In this document: positions 2,018-23,970 of the stretch, piece after piece
How positions within the stretch are numbered: the stretch's first letter is position 1
Layout of the letters: the number at the start of each line of letters is the position of its first letter
Source of the DNA: Candidatus Zixiibacteriota bacterium
Lineage (GTDB): Bacteria; Zixibacteria; MSB-5A5; JAABVY01; JAHJOQ01
Direction of reading: 5' to 3'
DNA length: 64,000 bases
Assembly: GCA_018820315.1 (NCBI GenBank)
Contig: JAHJOQ010000040.1
Coordinates: forward strand, 1-64,000
Translations under genes and position numbers: made by a program
The notes under the pieces: model-generated
Databases searched by the model: none
Told to the model about the DNA's origin: nothing
The model's input: the letters and a program-made list of their open reading frames with translations, nothing else

Positions 2018-2992
2018 CTAGAGTTTATCGTAACAGTTATCATAACCAAGCAGCATGCAAAGTTTGCGCGTCACCTCCTCCAACAACATATTGACCTCAT
2101 CGCCAGCAACCTGACGACCCGGTATATCAACAAAACTCAGATTCGAAATATTGCCAATCTCCTGTGCGTTCACATCAAAACGGACCCATCTTCCTTTGAA
2201 CAAAATCGAAAATTTGTCATCGCTGCCTCGAACGATCTTAAGCCATTGTTCGGACTGGTCCATCTCTGTCTGGCTCACACCTGAATGTGTGAACATGCTC
2301 TTGACACAGAGTCGGAGACAGAGATTCACCATCTGATAATGATATGGGTCGAGTTTTATTCGTGAAATGCCCTCTTCGGGCAAATTTCTATCCGTGGTTC
2401 CGGAAGCTACAACGTTCCTGAATCCGCCGATTGTATCGGCCGCGGCTGAGACGGCTGCATAGCGAAGACCTTCGGATACTTCATTCCTGTCGACGACGTC
2501 GGTTTCGATTTCCACAACAGGTGTCTGAACCGCAGGCAGAGCTCTCTTCTCTGTTGATTCATGGATCACCGACCTGTCATTTTCTTTGGCCATATCGCGC
2601 GAATCCGCCACGATAATCTGCTTCTCCGTGGTCATGGTGTTATCCGGTATGCTGCGCAGTCGTTCTGTCGGCTTCGGTTTCGGAGGTTCCACTTTCGGTT
2701 GTGGTTTTGGCTTAGGTTTCTCGAGTGGAGGGATTTCGATTATGAAACCCGCCTTGCTTATTTTCTTCTCAGGCTTTGACGCGGTCTCAGGCGGATTGGC
2801 GGAGCCGAGATGTACGGCTGCCAGATATCCGGCAATTGTCAGCACTATAGCCAGACCCACTATGTTGAGTATCCGTCGCCATGTGGGGCCATTCCTCAAT
2901 TCAGCCGCATTAAAATCGGCTCCTGAGTGTGACCTGGTGACGAATGTCTCGAGCTCAAGCTGAGCATCGAACCTGTCAAAGTAAGCTTGCAT
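2018..2992 (-). CDS. TonB-like energy transducer with atypical C-terminal domain
   Basis: 324 residues. A cytoplasmic N-terminal part of about 45 residues is followed by one membrane helix (ILNIVGLAIVLTIAGYLAAV, about 42-62). Then comes a Pro/Lys-rich linker (PPLEKPKPKPQPKVEPPKPKP, about 88-110) like the periplasm-spanning part of TonB. The C-terminal domain (about 210-324, with KLDPYHYQMVNLCLRLCVKSM and LCMLLGYDNCYDKL) does not resemble the TonB domain I know and carries four cysteines. The long N-terminal cytoplasmic extension is also unusual. Position directly after exbB/exbD-like genes supports a role as force transducer to the outer membrane or to the two exported proteins that follow. 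Family assignment rests on architecture and context. Confidence 0.7.
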   Translation of the reverse strand: MQAYFDRFDAQLELETFVTRSHSGADFNAAELRNGPTWRRILNIVGLAIVLTIAGYLAAVHLGSANPPETASKPEKKISKAGFIIEIPPLEKPKPKPQPKVEPPKPKPTERLRSIPDNTMTTEKQIIVADSRDMAKENDRSVIHESTEKRALPAVQTPVVEIETDVVDRNEVSEGLRYAAVSAAADTIGGFRNVVASGTTDRNLPEEGISRIKLDPYHYQMVNLCLRLCVKSMFTHSGVSQTEMDQSEQWLKIVRGSDDKFSILFKGRWVRFDVNAQEIGNISNLSFVDIPGRQVAGDEVNMLLEEVTRKLCMLLGYDNCYDKL

Positions 2993-3032
2993 GTTATGCT
3001 CTGTATCCCGGTATTACTACCATTGGGCGTGA

Positions 3033-3521
3033 CTATCCGGCATCTGTCCTATAGACCAAATTGCACGGATAGTCGAGCTGATTGCACGCCGCTATTGTTA
3101 TCGCGATCAATCCGTAGTAGGAATAAGCCGAACTGAAAATGTCGATTCGAATTGAGTCCGCGACGGCCTCTCTGGTTTGGACGAATTCTCCCAGTTGCCC
3201 CGTTATCTGCTGGTAGCCGCCGACCTCAGCCAGCGACTGATTGTCGATGGTGACGAACAGCGTCTCCGGAGGCATGGATCGTTCGAAAATGAACGCCATC
3301 CGACACGAATCCGAGGTGACGTCCTTTTCGTAAATCTCGACTCTGAATGGCGATTGAGTCGTCTTGTCGACAGCATTCGCCTGCTTGTACGGCATGTCGA
3401 TTCGCTCAACCCTCTGTGCTCCGCTTCCTACTATGATGAAGAAGAACAGAAGGATGAACGCGAGATCGGACGCTCCGATGATGTATGGCGTTAGATATCT
3501 CTTGTTATTGCTGGTGGACAC
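3033..3521 (-). CDS. ExbD/TolR-like proton-channel subunit
   Basis: 162 residues starting at GTG 3521, with AGGAG about 6 bases ahead. A short cytoplasmic N-terminus precedes a single membrane helix containing the family's conserved aspartate (ASDLAFILLFFFIIVGSGAQ, Asp at about 19), the proton-binding residue in ExbD/TolR/MotB-type stators. The periplasmic part (about 40-162) contains the VTIDNQSLAEVGGY and LGEFVQTREAVADSIRIDIFS segments, which follow the usual ExbD beta-alpha pattern only loosely. The start overlaps the end of the ExbB-like gene by 17 bp, which suggests coupled translation and fixed stoichiometry. It is divergent enough that automated annotation may call it hypothetical. Confidence 0.75.
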   Translation of the reverse strand: MSTSNNKRYLTPYIIGASDLAFILLFFFIIVGSGAQRVERIDMPYKQANAVDKTTQSPFRVEIYEKDVTSDSCRMAFIFERSMPPETLFVTIDNQSLAEVGGYQQITGQLGEFVQTREAVADSIRIDIFSSAYSYYGLIAITIAACNQLDYPCNLVYRTDAG

Positions 3522-14659: not shown

Positions 14660-14740
14660 CGGGGCAGACGTCCCGTCTGCCCGAATCATGTAGGGCAGCG
14701 ATCCGAAGTCACGCAAGGCGTGACGGAGCGATCCTGCCTA
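14660..14740. repeat. Two adjacent palindromic elements downstream of the HesB/IscA gene
   Basis: First, a perfect 9-bp stem (GGGCAGACG-TCC-CGTCTGCCC, 14662-14682). Second, 14691-14740 has outer arms TAGGGCAG/CTGCCTA, each followed or preceded by CGATCC, with an inner hairpin TCACGC-AAG-GCGTGA. The second unit belongs to the variable-arm repeat family. The first could act as a terminator stem but has no U-tract. Confidence 0.55.
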
Positions 14741-14799
14741 TTTCTTTGTCACGCAGAGGAATAAAATAATCAGAATCGCAGGGGTCGCGGCCCATAGGA

Positions 14800-15633
14800 C
14801 TAGCCCTTGACGATCTTCGATTCCGGCTCCCGCCGCAGAAGATCCCGATCGTAATCATATGGCTTCTGCGGGCAGAGAAAATCTGGTACAAGAACCCACC
14901 GACAGTTCTCAAATCTCCAGCGCTGTATGGGCGACCTATACATTTTGCGATATATCCGACGCCATTTTAGGAGTGGATGGCGATAAGGATAAAACCTCCT
15001 ATAATGCATGCATGATTCGAGTAGAATTTCTTTGTCTCGCAGGTTCACGCTATCGCCGAGGATTTCCCTAATTCGTTTCATAAGGTTTATGTTCCCCCGC
15101 ATTTCCTTGTTGGTAGCTGGAAAATACCATATCCTGTGTCCCGAATAAGCGCCGATGCCGGCATCATCGCAGTGATGTGCTACGCCATCGATCAACAGCC
15201 TGAGAATGACGGTACCTTCAGCGTCAGTCTTTGAGGTGTTTTCTATTCGCGGTCTTGTGCTTTTCACGCACGAACCATCATCCGGAACCAGTATTGTCAG
15301 AGTAGGTCTACTCATATGGTCGATATGGAACAATGCGACGCACACAGCCAAAAGAAGGAGCGCCCACGAAACGCACGTTGTCCAATCAAATGTACTTGAT
15401 GAATGTTCCCCAGCGTTGCTATCATTAAGTATTACTTTAGTATTATATTCACGGGATTTCCCGTTAACAGGCAGTCGATCTGCAAGACTCGGCGCGAGCG
15501 CCGACACACCGCAGGAATCGACAATGTTTGAATCAGAGTTGACAGCGACGGGGGCCGAAAGGCCTTCCGCTTGCGCTGCAACAATACATAAGGCGACTAC
15601 GATTATGAAATGCAAAAAGTGAGAACAATGCAT
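14800..15633 (-). CDS. Membrane protein of unknown function, paired with the AbiGi-like gene
   Basis: 277 residues; ATG 15633 with GAGG 9 bases ahead. There is an N-terminal signal peptide (MHCSHFLHFIIVVALCIVAAQAEG), a low-complexity exported stretch, then a membrane helix at about 85-102 (CVSWALLLLAVCVALFHI). The region after it begins with LTILVPDDG and TVILRLLIDG strands like an Ig-type fold, and ends with a basic, Tyr/Arg-rich part (MHYRRFYPYRHPLLKWRRIYRKMYRS). I do not recognise a family. Its promoter region (15708-15824) is a near-identical copy of that upstream of the AbiGi-like gene, so the two genes should respond to the same signal. It may be an effector or partner of that gene; this is inference from the shared control only. 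Confidence 0.7.
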   Translation of the reverse strand: MHCSHFLHFIIVVALCIVAAQAEGLSAPVAVNSDSNIVDSCGVSALAPSLADRLPVNGKSREYNTKVILNDSNAGEHSSSTFDWTTCVSWALLLLAVCVALFHIDHMSRPTLTILVPDDGSCVKSTRPRIENTSKTDAEGTVILRLLIDGVAHHCDDAGIGAYSGHRIWYFPATNKEMRGNINLMKRIREILGDSVNLRDKEILLESCMHYRRFYPYRHPLLKWRRIYRKMYRSPIQRWRFENCRWVLVPDFLCPQKPYDYDRDLLRREPESKIVKG

Positions 15634-15707
15634 AAGTTATGACCTCGCTTACGATTGGCCGTCAGGAACTCTTGCTTGACGACACAGTACCGTCGGTCAG
15701 CATCCTT

Positions 15708-15824
15708 GCGATGCTGACTACTCTCTCTGCATCACCAATCCCTGTCCGCGATAATATCTTCGAAATCACAATTATCATACAACGATCTCACTATCGTGTC
15801 AAGGCAAATGCTGCTGCGCTGAGT
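15708..15824 (-). repeat. 117-bp promoter-leader module, copy 1
   Basis: About 111 of 117 positions match the module at 16650-16766, by eye; the first 73 bases appear identical. The differences cluster in the promoter spacer, where both copies nevertheless keep an inverted repeat. At 15694-15716 a strong 9-bp hairpin (GTCAGCATC-CTTGC-GATGCTGAC), partly outside the shared unit, lies in the leader of the membrane-protein gene. Confidence 0.85.
15774..15802 (-). promoter_or_regulatory. Promoter-operator for the membrane-protein gene (module copy 1)
   Basis: On the minus strand TTGACA, 17 bp, TATGAT, a near-consensus sigma-70 promoter. The spacer contains the inverted repeat ACGAT-AGTGAG-ATCGT, a likely repressor operator placed to block polymerase. 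The leader to the ATG is about 135 bases, unusually long. Confidence 0.75.
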
Positions 15825-15861
15825 GCTGCGTTGGCGCACGAGGATGTACGTCCACCGCAGA

Positions 15862-16608
15862 CTATGGGACTACGGAGTATTTGAGTTTTAACCGTTGTCT
15901 TGCATTGATAAGCTTCTCCGCGTACCACTTTGCATTTCGTGTCGGATCAATAAATTTGAATCCCAAGTTCATATCATCGAAGTGATCGATCTCCTCATGT
16001 GGACAGAAGCCAATAAATACGTCATTGGCTTCGAATCCCAATTGTCCCTCTGACTTCGGTTGTCGCCATTCCCTCTCCCAGATGAAGTTCACATCTCCGC
16101 TCTGTGGATTAGATGCAGCAGGAGGCTGGATCTTCTTTCCGAATACCGCCATAAGCGGCAACAGTCTCTTGGCCTCATTCCGGCGAGTCTCACAAAGGGT
16201 ACACATAGCCTGGAATAGTGCGTCAGAGTTTCCGCGTATATTGTTGATGTATAACACTGGACTTACTCCTCGGTCCGCGAGACGTTCTTTCAAGAATGCC
16301 AGCCCGTATGGTTTGAGGTCGACTCCTCGATACGATATCTCAAGAAGTGAATGCACTTCGTTTAATGGGGTCTCGGTGAAGCAAATCGCTGAGAATAAGT
16401 CCTGCTTTTCTGCCTCCGTAAGGCTTGATGTCAACATACCGAATCGAGCATCGCTGATAAGTTGATCGCTGCAGAGTAGTTGCTTTTCCGTCAGGATTTT
16501 CGTCAAATTTTCTTTCGCCGATCTACCGCCAGATTCATCCTTTGTCAAGTGAACCAGAAAGGGAGACAGATCTGAGCGGAACCGAAGTATGCTGTCTATG
16601 TCGCGCAT
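15862..16608 (-). CDS. Putative AbiGi-family (abortive infection) protein
   Basis: 248 residues; ATG 16608 with GGAAGG about 6 bases ahead. Segments that recall the AbiGi family (Pfam AbiGi, named after the antitoxin half of lactococcal AbiG) are FLVHLTKDESGG near the start, the helix ENLTKILTEKQLL, AICFTETPLNEVHSLLE (about 75-90), YGLAFLKERLADRGVSPVLYI (101-121) and FIWEREWR (about 175-182). AbiG systems limit phage by abortive infection, the AbiGii partner acting as toxin. I see no AbiGii-like gene beside it. Assignment is from memory of motifs and is moderate; DUF2971-like proteins share the ETPL and EREWR features. Confidence 0.6.
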   Translation of the reverse strand: MRDIDSILRFRSDLSPFLVHLTKDESGGRSAKENLTKILTEKQLLCSDQLISDARFGMLTSSLTEAEKQDLFSAICFTETPLNEVHSLLEISYRGVDLKPYGLAFLKERLADRGVSPVLYINNIRGNSDALFQAMCTLCETRRNEAKRLLPLMAVFGKKIQPPAASNPQSGDVNFIWEREWRQPKSEGQLGFEANDVFIGFCPHEEIDHFDDMNLGFKFIDPTRNAKWYAEKLINARQRLKLKYSVVP

Positions 16609-16649
16609 CCGTCACCTTCCTGTCGACCGAACTGCGGGCCGGAATCCCA

Positions 16650-16766
16650 GCGATGCTGACTACTCTCTCTGCATCACCAATCCCTGTCCGCGATAATATC
16701 TTCGAAATCACAATTATCATACCACGATTCCGCAATCGTGTCAAGCCAAATGCTGCTGCGCTGAGT
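16650..16766 (-). repeat. 117-bp promoter-leader module, copy 2
   Basis: Direct repeat of the module at 15708-15824, displaced by 942 bp, so the AbiGi-like gene sits exactly between the two copies. This is the arrangement expected after a tandem duplication followed by replacement of one coding unit, or after gene insertion next to a promoter. Confidence 0.85.
16716..16744 (-). promoter_or_regulatory. Promoter-operator for the AbiGi-like gene (module copy 2)
   Basis: On the minus strand TTGACA, 17 bp, TATGAT. The spacer and flanks hold a perfect 7-bp dyad (CACGATT-GCGG-AATCGTG). Compared with copy 1 the dyad is longer but the core ACGAT/ATCGT is kept while the loop has changed, which supports selection on the inverted repeat. 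Confidence 0.75.
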
Positions 16767-17177
16767 ACTCGTCGTTACGCGAGACCTGCACCGACCACAA
16801 TGAGAGGTCGGGATAGATTCCGTTTTGCAACGGAATGACAACGCGTACCGCGTTGTCTCGGCCTTGTGCGCGGTCTTGTGCGCGTCATTCCGGCGAACGG
16901 CATTGTGGATAAACCCCGAACCACGTCATTGTGAGCGAAGAGTGGCAATCTCGGTCAGATGTGGACATCTGCCGCGCACTTGATGTGCGAGCAGAGGCTG
17001 TGCCTCTGCGTTCTTCTATGAAATATTCACAGGAGCACAGCCCCTGTGTGCACTTTGATGCGGCATAGAGATCGCCACGTCGCTTCGCTCCTCGCGATGA
17101 CGATTTCTCCGGGAATGGTGACCTATCAACAAGCTCGAACGCCGGAATCCAGAAGTACATCTCCACTCAAACAAGAA
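16767..17177. repeat. Palindrome-rich intergenic region with a decayed MITE copy
   Basis: No gene. Consecutive perfect hairpins are seen at 16817-16836 (ATTCCGTT-TTGC-AACGGAAT), 16838-16856 (ACAACGCG-TAC-CGCGTTGT) and 16991-17009 (GCAGAGGC-TGT-GCCTCTGC). The stretch from about 16900 to 17110 resembles a degenerate copy of the MITE-like family: CGTCATTGTGAGCGAAGAG TGGCAATCTC at one end and GATCGCCACGTCGCTTCGCTC at the other. Small open frames here are translated repeats. Confidence 0.6.
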
Positions 17178-21523: not shown

Positions 21524-21542
21524 AGGTAAGTTGGGGGAGCAC

Positions 21543-21584
21543 GTAGGTCAAACCCCTGCGGTTTTGACATCTTCAATTCATTCG
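21543..21584 (+). repeat. REP-like element, copy 1
   Basis: Hairpin GTCAAACC-CCTGC-GGTTTTGAC preceded by GTAG and followed by ATCTTCAATTCATTCG. The same hairpin and tail recur at 23393-23435 next to the Y1 transposase, so this is a solo member of that REP family. Confidence 0.8.
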
Positions 21585-21760
21585 TGCTCCAACGAAATGA
21601 GCGGCATCAAGGCATTTACCTTGACAGAGTTGGGCGATGGCGATATTATGAATCTGATTTCGTGATTGTATTGACATTTAAGGGCTGGTAACATCAGTGG
21701 AATGGTAAGGTTTGCAGGAAATATGACCAGCAAAGCCCTCTGGGCATGGGAGCACACCGC

Positions 21761-22372
21761 ATGACCAAAGACCCAGCAAGCAAGAGCGGTGGCTTCGGAT
21801 GTAGCATCGGCTGCGGAACGTTCATAGTAATCTGTCTGTTCGCCTCCCTGATCTTCGGTGTGAACGTGGATGAAATGCCTCACGCAGTTTACTACGTCGC
21901 TGTCTTGATTGCGGTTGTCGTTGCTGTTCTTGCATACCGGTACCAACGTGGATTGTACACAGACCTTGAGAAGGTCGATCTGCTCGATGACGAAGTGGAA
22001 TTGTACAGGACACCGGCCACTTACTATGGTGGTCACAAGACGCAGGGTGAGAAGGCTGATGTCCAGTTGATACTGACATCAAAGCGAGTCATCGCGAGAC
22101 CTCTCGGCGCACCCGTCTTTCTGATGTATGTTGACTTGACATCCGTTACGGATTTTGGAATGGACACGAAGGAAAGACTGACCGCAGCTCGAATGCTTCT
22201 CGTAGGTATTCTTGCGTTTGCTATGAAGAAGCAGGATAAATACTTGTGGATCAAATATACAGATCGAAATGGATTCGAGCAGAATCCGGTGTTCGGCAGT
22301 GATTTTCACCACCAGCTTTCGGAATTTCAGAGTAAGTTGTATAGCGCGATCGCAAATGCACGCGCCGAATGA
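21761..22372 (+). CDS. Small membrane protein with a possible bacterial PH-like domain
   Basis: 203 residues. ATG 21761 is preferred (GGGAG 8 bases ahead) over an ATG five codons earlier. Two adjacent membrane helices occupy about 15-60 (GCGTFIVICLFASLIFGV, AVYYVAVLIAVVVAVLAY). The cytoplasmic part reads as alternating strands (EVELYRTPATYYGG, VQLILTSKRVIARPLG, VFLMYVDLTSVTDFG, YLWIKYTD), the pattern of bPH/GRAM-like domains: a strand pair with TSKRVI then a VDLTSV strand. Function unknown. It lies between two directly repeated REP elements with the next gene. Confidence 0.75.
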   Translation: MTKDPASKSGGFGCSIGCGTFIVICLFASLIFGVNVDEMPHAVYYVAVLIAVVVAVLAYRYQRGLYTDLEKVDLLDDEVELYRTPATYYGGHKTQGEKADVQLILTSKRVIARPLGAPVFLMYVDLTSVTDFGMDTKERLTAARMLLVGILAFAMKKQDKYLWIKYTDRNGFEQNPVFGSDFHHQLSEFQSKLYSAIANARAE

Positions 22373-22481: not shown

Positions 22482-23387
22482 ATGAAAGCTAATGATCTTG
22501 ACTACGTTGTTGAGTCTGACGGTCTCCGGTTCGAACTTTCAGGCAAACCAATATTACTGCACAATCAGCACAGGTGGATATTGTCAATAATTCACTGGGC
22601 GCAGCAGCAAAACATTCTGTACCAGCCCTGTACAATAGTAAGTCTTGATGCGCATCGCGACTGGGCAGGGTATCGCAAGTACACCGGTACTGAATCCAGT
22701 CTCTGGAAGAAGATACTAAGTGAAGGAGTATCTCATCGGCAACTGCAGGAGTATCTGACGGATGACATAGATGACAATGGACAGTGGATAGTAACTGGTG
22801 CAGACTTCGGTCTAATAGACAATGCATTCTTGATTGGCGGACAGCTCGAACATGATGACGACAAAAGACCATTCTGGCATAGGAGTACCGATCACAATTC
22901 CTTGGATCGAGATCTGAGCTTGTTTCTAGCTGACTATAATGATGTCAGACATGAAGTGATTCCCCTTCGGATTTACGTCGAGGAAGAGCTCGGCGGCCAG
23001 TGCATTAATGTGTTGGCTGAGACCTTCGACTCTGATATCGAGAAAAGGAGATGGTTACTCTGTCGCGACCGGATCAAACAGATGAAGAGCTGTCAGTTTC
23101 TGGCCACAATAGACTTGGATTTCTTCATAGCCAAGTCCGACAGTAAGCACAGCGAGCTCTGGACAGAGCAAGCTCTAATCAGGTTTCTATCGATGGACCT
23201 AGGCGACAACGTTGGCAGAGAATCTATGACTATCGGTGACATGTTAAGGGAGGTTATTCACGAAGCGGCCTTAGTTGTGATCGCTGCGGAACCGAAATAC
23301 ACCGGTAGTCAAGCTAACATCCACACTGCCCTGCGATGGATAGAGAATCATCTAGGCTTGGCTCTTCCTCGCAGTTGGACTTCCTAG
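22482..23387 (+). CDS. UPF0489-family protein (arginase-like fold suspected)
   Basis: 301 residues. No strong ribosome site is seen at ATG 22482. Motifs match what I recall of the UPF0489/C5orf22 family: HNQHRWILSIIHWA, VSLDAHRDWAGY (Asp56, His58, Asp60), an ATIDLDFFIAK strand with two aspartates (about 213-218) and the late AAEPKYTGSQANIHTALRWIE. The DxHxD and DLDFF motifs resemble metal-binding motifs of ureohydrolases, suggesting a metal-dependent hydrolase; no activity is established for the family as far as I know. It follows the PH-like membrane protein by 109 bp, and REP elements flank the pair. Confidence 0.65.
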   Translation: MKANDLDYVVESDGLRFELSGKPILLHNQHRWILSIIHWAQQQNILYQPCTIVSLDAHRDWAGYRKYTGTESSLWKKILSEGVSHRQLQEYLTDDIDDNGQWIVTGADFGLIDNAFLIGGQLEHDDDKRPFWHRSTDHNSLDRDLSLFLADYNDVRHEVIPLRIYVEEELGGQCINVLAETFDSDIEKRRWLLCRDRIKQMKSCQFLATIDLDFFIAKSDSKHSELWTEQALIRFLSMDLGDNVGRESMTIGDMLREVIHEAALVVIAAEPKYTGSQANIHTALRWIENHLGLALPRSWTS

Positions 23388-23392
23388 GCGAT

Positions 23393-23435
23393 GTAGGTCA
23401 AAACCCCTGTGGTTCTGACATCTTCAATTCATTCG
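23393..23435 (+). repeat. REP-like element, copy 2, overlapping the transposase stop codon
   Basis: GTAGGTCAAAACC-CCTGT-GGTTCTGAC followed by ATCTTCAATTCATTCG. The tail runs into the 3' end of the Y1 transposase gene on the other strand and supplies its TGA stop (23429-23431). Confidence 0.85.
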
Positions 23436-23932
23436 CCAAATTCCCCAGAAAGATATTCCGGCTCCCGCACACCCCAATCTGGCGCATAGTATCCTCTCTG
23501 GAGATAATCGTGAATCGATGAATGCGGCCAATCGAAAGGGCTTCTTACCAAACCATGCTTCACCGGATTGTAATGGATGTAATCAATGTGTCGATTCATG
23601 TCATTCTGATCGCGAATGATATGATCCCAGAATCGATACTGCCAGATTCGTCCGGAGACCATCCCGATGCGACCTCTCAGGCGTGTTGAATATGAGAGCT
23701 TGAGCCGGCACATTAGCGCAGATGGATTCTCCCTTTCTGCCAGCACAATCATGTGGAAGTGGTCGGGGAGGATCACCCACGCGATCGCCTCAAACGGACT
23801 GCGTTGCTGCGTAGATTCGATTGCTTCGCGGAAGAGATCGATATGTTTTGCGAGGAGGGGTTTGCGGTCGAGTGTGACATTTGTGAGAAACACAGGATTT
23901 CCCTCATTGAAATACCGACGTAAATTTGACAT
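23429..23932 (-). CDS. REP-associated tyrosine transposase (RAYT, Y1 HUH family)
   Basis: About 167 residues from ATG 23932; the upstream extension to 23959 is REP sequence. HUH single-strand transposases of this group bind and cut REP hairpins. The HUH motif is DHFHMIVL (about 62-69) and the catalytic-tyrosine helix is MNRHIDYIHYNPVKHGLV (about 120-137). Other family segments are NPVFLTNVT near the start, RFWDHIIRDQNDM and the C-terminal WPHSSIHDYLQRGYY. Length and motifs look intact, so it may be active. It is bracketed by oppositely oriented REP copies (23393-23435 and 23934-23970), the standard genomic setting of RAYTs. Confidence 0.93.
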   Translation of the reverse strand: MSNLRRYFNEGNPVFLTNVTLDRKPLLAKHIDLFREAIESTQQRSPFEAIAWVILPDHFHMIVLAERENPSALMCRLKLSYSTRLRGRIGMVSGRIWQYRFWDHIIRDQNDMNRHIDYIHYNPVKHGLVRSPFDWPHSSIHDYLQRGYYAPDWGVREPEYLSGEFGE

Positions 23933-23933
23933 G

Positions 23934-23970
23934 CGATCAGATGAAGACGTCAAAACCACAGGTGTTTTGA
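23934..23970 (-). repeat. REP-like element, copy 3, at the transposase start
   Basis: Read on the minus strand, TCAAAACACC-TGT-GGTTTTGAC then GTCTTCATCTGATCG, ending immediately before the transposase ATG. It is inverted relative to copy 2. The tail differs slightly from the other two copies. Confidence 0.75.

Follow-up and report, generated by a model that had tools for sequence, protein, structure and literature searches.

A dispersed, putative promoter-leader repeat upstream of unrelated accessory genes, some of them defence-related, in a Candidatus Zixiibacteriota genome

A promoter-bearing intergenic repeat, hereafter the module, occurs about 14 times in this Candidatus Zixiibacteriota genome (a 173-contig assembly), and it points the same way as the gene behind it in all cases where that gene is readable. 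The genes that follow it are mutually non-homologous and include Thoeris, TIR-TM, AbiGi, RAYT transposases, membrane proteins and others. We consider it probable, at about 0.62 and judging from sequence comparison, that the module belongs with the putative mobile promoters, as a promoter-leader repeat dispersed over the genome and serving single-gene accessory cassettes that are partly defence cassettes. It would provide each unrelated accessory gene with its own strong housekeeping-sigma promoter and a 5′ leader, and such promoters are expected to be active and constitutive. Relevant features of the window, that is, of the whole stretch of 64,000 nucleotides analysed here, are collected in Table 1.

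Table 1. Module copies, associated signals and neighbouring genes in the window (R1 and R2, sequence profiles described in the text; strand as reported).
Feature	Position	Strand	Evidence
Module copy upstream of the AbiGi-like gene	16644-16769	-	93%/126 nt to 15702-15827; R2 profile 4.5e-19
Module copy upstream of the membrane-protein gene	15702-15827	-	direct repeat and blastn; R2 profile 2.6e-19
Third, diverged module copy	21611-21690	+	R1 2.3e-4 (copy not in R1); R2 3.1e-14 (copy in R2)
Sigma70-type promoter TTGACA-17-TATGAT with extended -10 (TGG) and spacer dyad CGATT-N4-AATCG, AbiGi copy	16716-16744	-	
Sigma70-type promoter TTGACA-17-TATGAT with spacer dyad CGAT-N6-ATCG, membrane-gene copy	15774-15802	-	
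Hairpin with GTGCGCCAAC motif, between the AbiGi stop codon and the second module copy	15826-15860	-	z -2.9
REP-type palindrome GTCAGCATCCTTGCGATGCTGAC in the leader of the membrane-gene copy	15696-15718	.	chance expectation 0
AbiGi-family protein, 248 aa	15862-16608	-	PADLOC AbiGi 8e-5; Pfam PF10899 0.0012
277-aa protein, two hydrophobic helices and beta-rich C-terminal domain	14800-15633	-	AF2 pLDDT 47, low-confidence model
Small membrane protein of no family, behind the third copy	21746-22372	+	
Protein after the 21746-22372 gene, possibly co-transcribed	22482-23387	+	UPF0489 resemblance weak, below cut-off

The original prediction drew attention to two of these copies, described as a duplicated promoter module 942 bp apart with a near-consensus promoter in each. 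A repeat search of the window recovers the same arrangement (15684-15827 and 16626-16769, spacing 942), as does blastn against the genome. Both promoters match 11 of the 12 consensus bases, and the TTGACA-17-TATGAT pattern did not occur once in 100 shuffles of the window; the extended -10 is found in the AbiGi copy only. Measured from where the -35 hexamer begins, the AbiGi-like gene starts 136 nt downstream and the membrane-protein gene 169 nt downstream. The two copies had been said to differ in the spacer alone. Differences are indeed concentrated there, with five of nine in the 17-nt spacer (Fisher p=0.002), but the other four of the nine in 126 nt lie outside it, at -23, -2, +95 and +96. 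Both spacers keep a dyad, as had been noted; taken singly, these dyads are weak, as shuffling the spacers produces one as good in 11% and 1.5% of cases. The modules are near-identical, in agreement with the proposal that the two genes have an expression signal in common. The counterpart of the GTCAGCATCCTTGCGATGCTGAC palindrome in the AbiGi copy, at 16638-16660, is decayed, and the GTGCGCCAAC hairpin motif is also present 5′ of some other module copies.

A genome-wide search showed that the module is not the two-copy feature it was taken to be. With blastn, four further, weaker places were found. We then rely on two profiles, R1, a sequence-only profile from five copies, and R2, from 12 copies. 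Outside its own model, R1 matches two copies on contig C30, one each on contigs C117, C45 and C134, two on C75 and the third window copy (21612-21664). R2 gives 14 copies at E<1e-3 and 12 at E<1e-13; since these 12 strong matches are its training set, the independent support is the R1 search. The core of the module is about 85 bp long and reads GCATTTGCCTTGACA-17-TATGAT ... GACAGGGGCTGAT, with conserved -35 and -10 elements (the latter usually preceded by TGG) and a leader that ends in GACAGGGGCTGAT. Conservation across the alignment extends over roughly -12 to +70, leader included, and therefore reflects descent rather than convergence on a sigma site only. Identity between copies is mostly 55-75%, so either the spread is old or parts of the module are under selection; closer pairs are the two window copies (C40, 93% over 126 nt), the C75 pair (83%/102), C30a-C117 (86%/65) and C83-C138a (83%/75).

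Across a set of 132 further genomes from the phylum, in which the same genus is unrepresented and which doubles as an empirical false-positive control, the module gave no match at E<=1e-4. No copy was found in viral contigs, phages or plasmids. A degenerate pattern run over 84,980 species genomes returned nine matches, which are ordinary sigma70 promoters from Clostridia and one Calditrichaeota. As far as can be seen with this comparison set, the module is private to this lineage.

Gene starts behind the modules lie roughly 80-240 nt from the -35. The C117 module precedes a complete Thoeris pair, consisting of ThsB (Pfam 1.2e-19, PADLOC 2.9e-76) and a macro-domain ThsA (Pfam 1.5e-32, PADLOC 1.7e-41), and the C75a module precedes a gene for a TIR-TM protein (PADLOC 1.5e-116). 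RAYT transposases are directly downstream of the C138a and C134 modules, and a short ORF cut by a REP and an inverted RAYT follows that of C83. Membrane proteins of no known family are encoded behind C45 and C12, other proteins of no known family behind C30a, C30b and C138b, whereas downstream of C75b the contig ends. The share of defence genes among these targets is suggestive, in a small sample judged by eye. Two more TIR genes, at C12 and C95, do not have the module, which is therefore not a mark of all defence genes. For forty other proteins of the window, PADLOC returned generic models alone, AAA regulators and ATPases among them.

More than half of the copies (8/14) form four same-strand tandem pairs, 775, 919, 942 and 1605 bp apart. 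Four pairs within 1.7 kb compare with 0.08 expected (P about 2e-6), under the assumption of uniform placement and with a distance limit that was set after seeing the data; even so, the excess is large. The C40 partners are more similar to each other than to any other copy, and so are the C75 partners, but this does not hold for the other two pairs; the pattern fits better with repeated recombination or copying of the module than with a single simple duplication history. In such a module-gene-module-gene layout, an incoming module-gene unit may have recombined with a resident module, or the module may have been copied as a mobile promoter; copies could have spread by either route.

The protein of 15862-16608, already described as AbiGi-like in the original prediction, is related to AbiGi by homology. 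It scores 19.4 bits against PF10899, slightly below the Pfam cut-off of 22.4, and has plasmid homologues annotated as AbiGi with values up to 5e-17, in addition to the PADLOC match; its AlphaFold model (pLDDT 32) is unusable. Among the phylum genomes, relatives occur in two genomes of the class, G028 (60%) and G094 (54%), in both alone among unrelated genes. The DNA upstream of the G028 homologue is ordinary and does not contain the module; the G094 gene is apparently cut at a contig start. Because the downstream genes are non-homologous and the G028 homologue is without the module, genes and promoter would appear to be separable units. For the membrane protein no family was found in Pfam, PADLOC or NCBIfam, and its relatives, weak and distant, are in G055, G027 and G125, standing alone where inspected (G055, G027).

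These results bear directly on the idea that the AbiGi-like protein and a membrane effector, both controlled by the duplicated promoter, form a two-gene system of a defence or toxin-antitoxin-like type. The two genes are adjacent and co-directional and their promoters are near-identical, but their relatives are found in different genomes, homologues of each stand alone, and the same promoter lies upstream of many unrelated genes. No other genome among the 133 of the phylum has both, and therefore a two-gene system is not supported; we regard it as highly improbable. An AbiGii-type partner is likewise absent beside the AbiGi-like gene, whose neighbour matches no such model in PADLOC, Pfam or NCBIfam. 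The original prediction itself named many copies upstream of unrelated genes as an outcome that would count against it, and 14 copies are what the genome holds. A coordinated regulon, with modules kept alike by selection and one regulator acting on defence and accessory genes through the spacer dyad or the leader, is in our view unlikely, if less so. It would account for leader conservation that extends past the promoter (for example, GACAGGGGCTGAT), and for two bona fide defence loci, Thoeris and TIR-TM, and one AbiGi among about 10 readable non-RAYT targets. It would also account for the CGAT-N6-ATCG dyad centred in the spacer of four related copies, namely, the two window copies, C138a and C134. 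However, the dyad is missing in the remaining 10 of the 14 and is therefore not a general operator. The module alignment has no common symmetry centre, RNAalifold found no common RNA structure in the leader, and no Rfam family matches the module; RAYT transposases are among the targets, and TIR genes exist without it. A general repressor-operator, through which the single regulator first envisaged would act, is therefore not supported; the dyad-bearing copies may have a subfamily operator.

The module could also be the left end of a mobile element, be it an integron-like site, an IS200/605-like end or a RAYT-mobilised unit, with the genes as passengers. The tandem arrangement, a GTTGG...CCAAC hairpin upstream of some copies, and RAYTs directly behind C138a and C134 and next to C83 would all agree with this, but of five copies tested, only three have a hairpin that is clearly more stable than shuffled sequences. 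In integrons, attC sites of the form RYYYAAC ... GTTRRRY are located at the 3′ end of each cassette; here the upstream hairpin has, by eye, the reverse order, GTT...AAC, and the 3′ flanks of the module-gene units share neither an attC nor any other right end apart from REPs. With no integron integrase in the genome above cut-off (the best, TIGR02249, reaches 73.5 bits against 265), we rejected an integron, and likewise an IS200/605-like element with left and right ends, given the inconsistent hairpin and the lack of a common right end. RAYTs and REPs surround several modules and some REPs are inserted in module leaders; nonetheless, at five RAYT loci the position directly upstream holds no module, which makes it likelier that the RAYT is often a neighbour of the module than that it moves it. 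For the same reason we dropped an early notion, suggested by RAYTs next to three of the first blastn neighbours, that the module is a RAYT promoter; copies also precede Thoeris, TIR and other genes. Altogether we hold the mobile-element end to be very doubtful. We also think it improbable that the module acts as a recombination anchor, at which incoming single-gene cassettes for defence and accessory functions, with the same promoter-leader, integrate by homologous recombination into resident modules. The tandem arrays so built would then be expressed at once, and the module would do the work of an integron by means of a promoter, with no integrase dedicated to it. Under the preferred reading, a dispersed promoter-leader repeat, the module stands before unrelated genes from which it is separable, and the AbiGi-like and membrane genes would therefore be two independent cassettes that came to lie side by side between a HesB-like iron-sulphur gene and groEL. 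Comparison with family and order relatives for an empty site showed that synteny is not conserved on the groEL flank. Both genes may act in defence.

RAYT (Y1_Tnp) genes number eight in this genome, at 23429-23959 of the window and at seven other loci, and there are several REP classes. The sequence at 21540-21600, just 5′ of the third module copy, matches the 23429 RAYT in its 3′ end and REP, and is probably what remains of a RAYT or REP. Behind the ThsA gene, and again behind the membrane-protein gene (window 14680-14760), lies a REPIN-like repeat of 60 bp, the two copies being 90% identical.

Putative mobile promoters are characterised by a high mutual similarity, of about 80% or more. They were reportedly described by Matus-Garcia, Nijveen and van Passel in 2012 (NAR 40:10032) and by van Passel et al. 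in 2014 (Genetics 197:291). Where the class calls for at least two similar promoter regions in one genome, here there are 14, and the downstream genes are non-homologous. According to papers that cite this work (PMC8049555, PMC9208149), such promoters are, like the module, short intergenic sequences that carry a promoter, are repeated in a single genome and stand before genes that are not homologous. The module differs in that its copies are mostly 55-75% identical over the core, with only some pairs above 80%, in its tandem module-gene units and in the notable share of defence targets. In horizontal regulatory transfer, regulatory region and coding sequence act as separate units, and what strains switch is the intergenic region of a single gene (PMC5890482); the likeness to our case lies in the separation, whereas here one type of region serves many genes within one genome. 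REPs or REPINs and RAYTs (TnpA-REP) (PMC3116915, PMC8266576) are both in this genome, with REPs in several leaders and RAYTs after two or three modules. Unlike them, the module is a promoter and not a palindrome, and it has only about 14 copies, most without a RAYT. The AbiGi-like protein is related by homology to the AbiGi family (PF10899; PADLOC PDLC02331), but in contrast to the AbiGi/AbiGii system its neighbour is an unrelated membrane protein. The tandem module-gene layout is unusual, as is the fact that the targets include Thoeris, TIR-TM and AbiGi. In the literature searched, of which coverage is incomplete, no earlier description of such a promoter family was found.

If confirmed, the module would be a simple handle on the genes that this lineage acquires and expresses, and a case of a promoter-leader spreading apart from coding sequences. 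By association with Thoeris, TIR-TM and AbiGi, the genes behind it, including those for membrane proteins of no family, would become candidate defence or stress genes, and the structure of the arrays would suggest how single-gene cassettes get captured and switched on.

Some individual loci deserve mention. At C95, a Mrr-like nuclease domain (recognised by eye) is fused to a TIR_2 domain (L102:1036-2391); 3′ of it, at 2506-3315, an ORF resembles DUF4062 proteins, and this defence-like locus does not have the module. Behind the C45 module, the gene for the membrane protein (L038:616-1274) has an apparent frameshift, with two overlapping ORFs. At C83 (L040:2699-2960) the ORF behind the module starts with MNVFRIHIRPKGG, and a REP together with an inverted RAYT truncates it, which suggests a RAYT insertion into a cassette gene.
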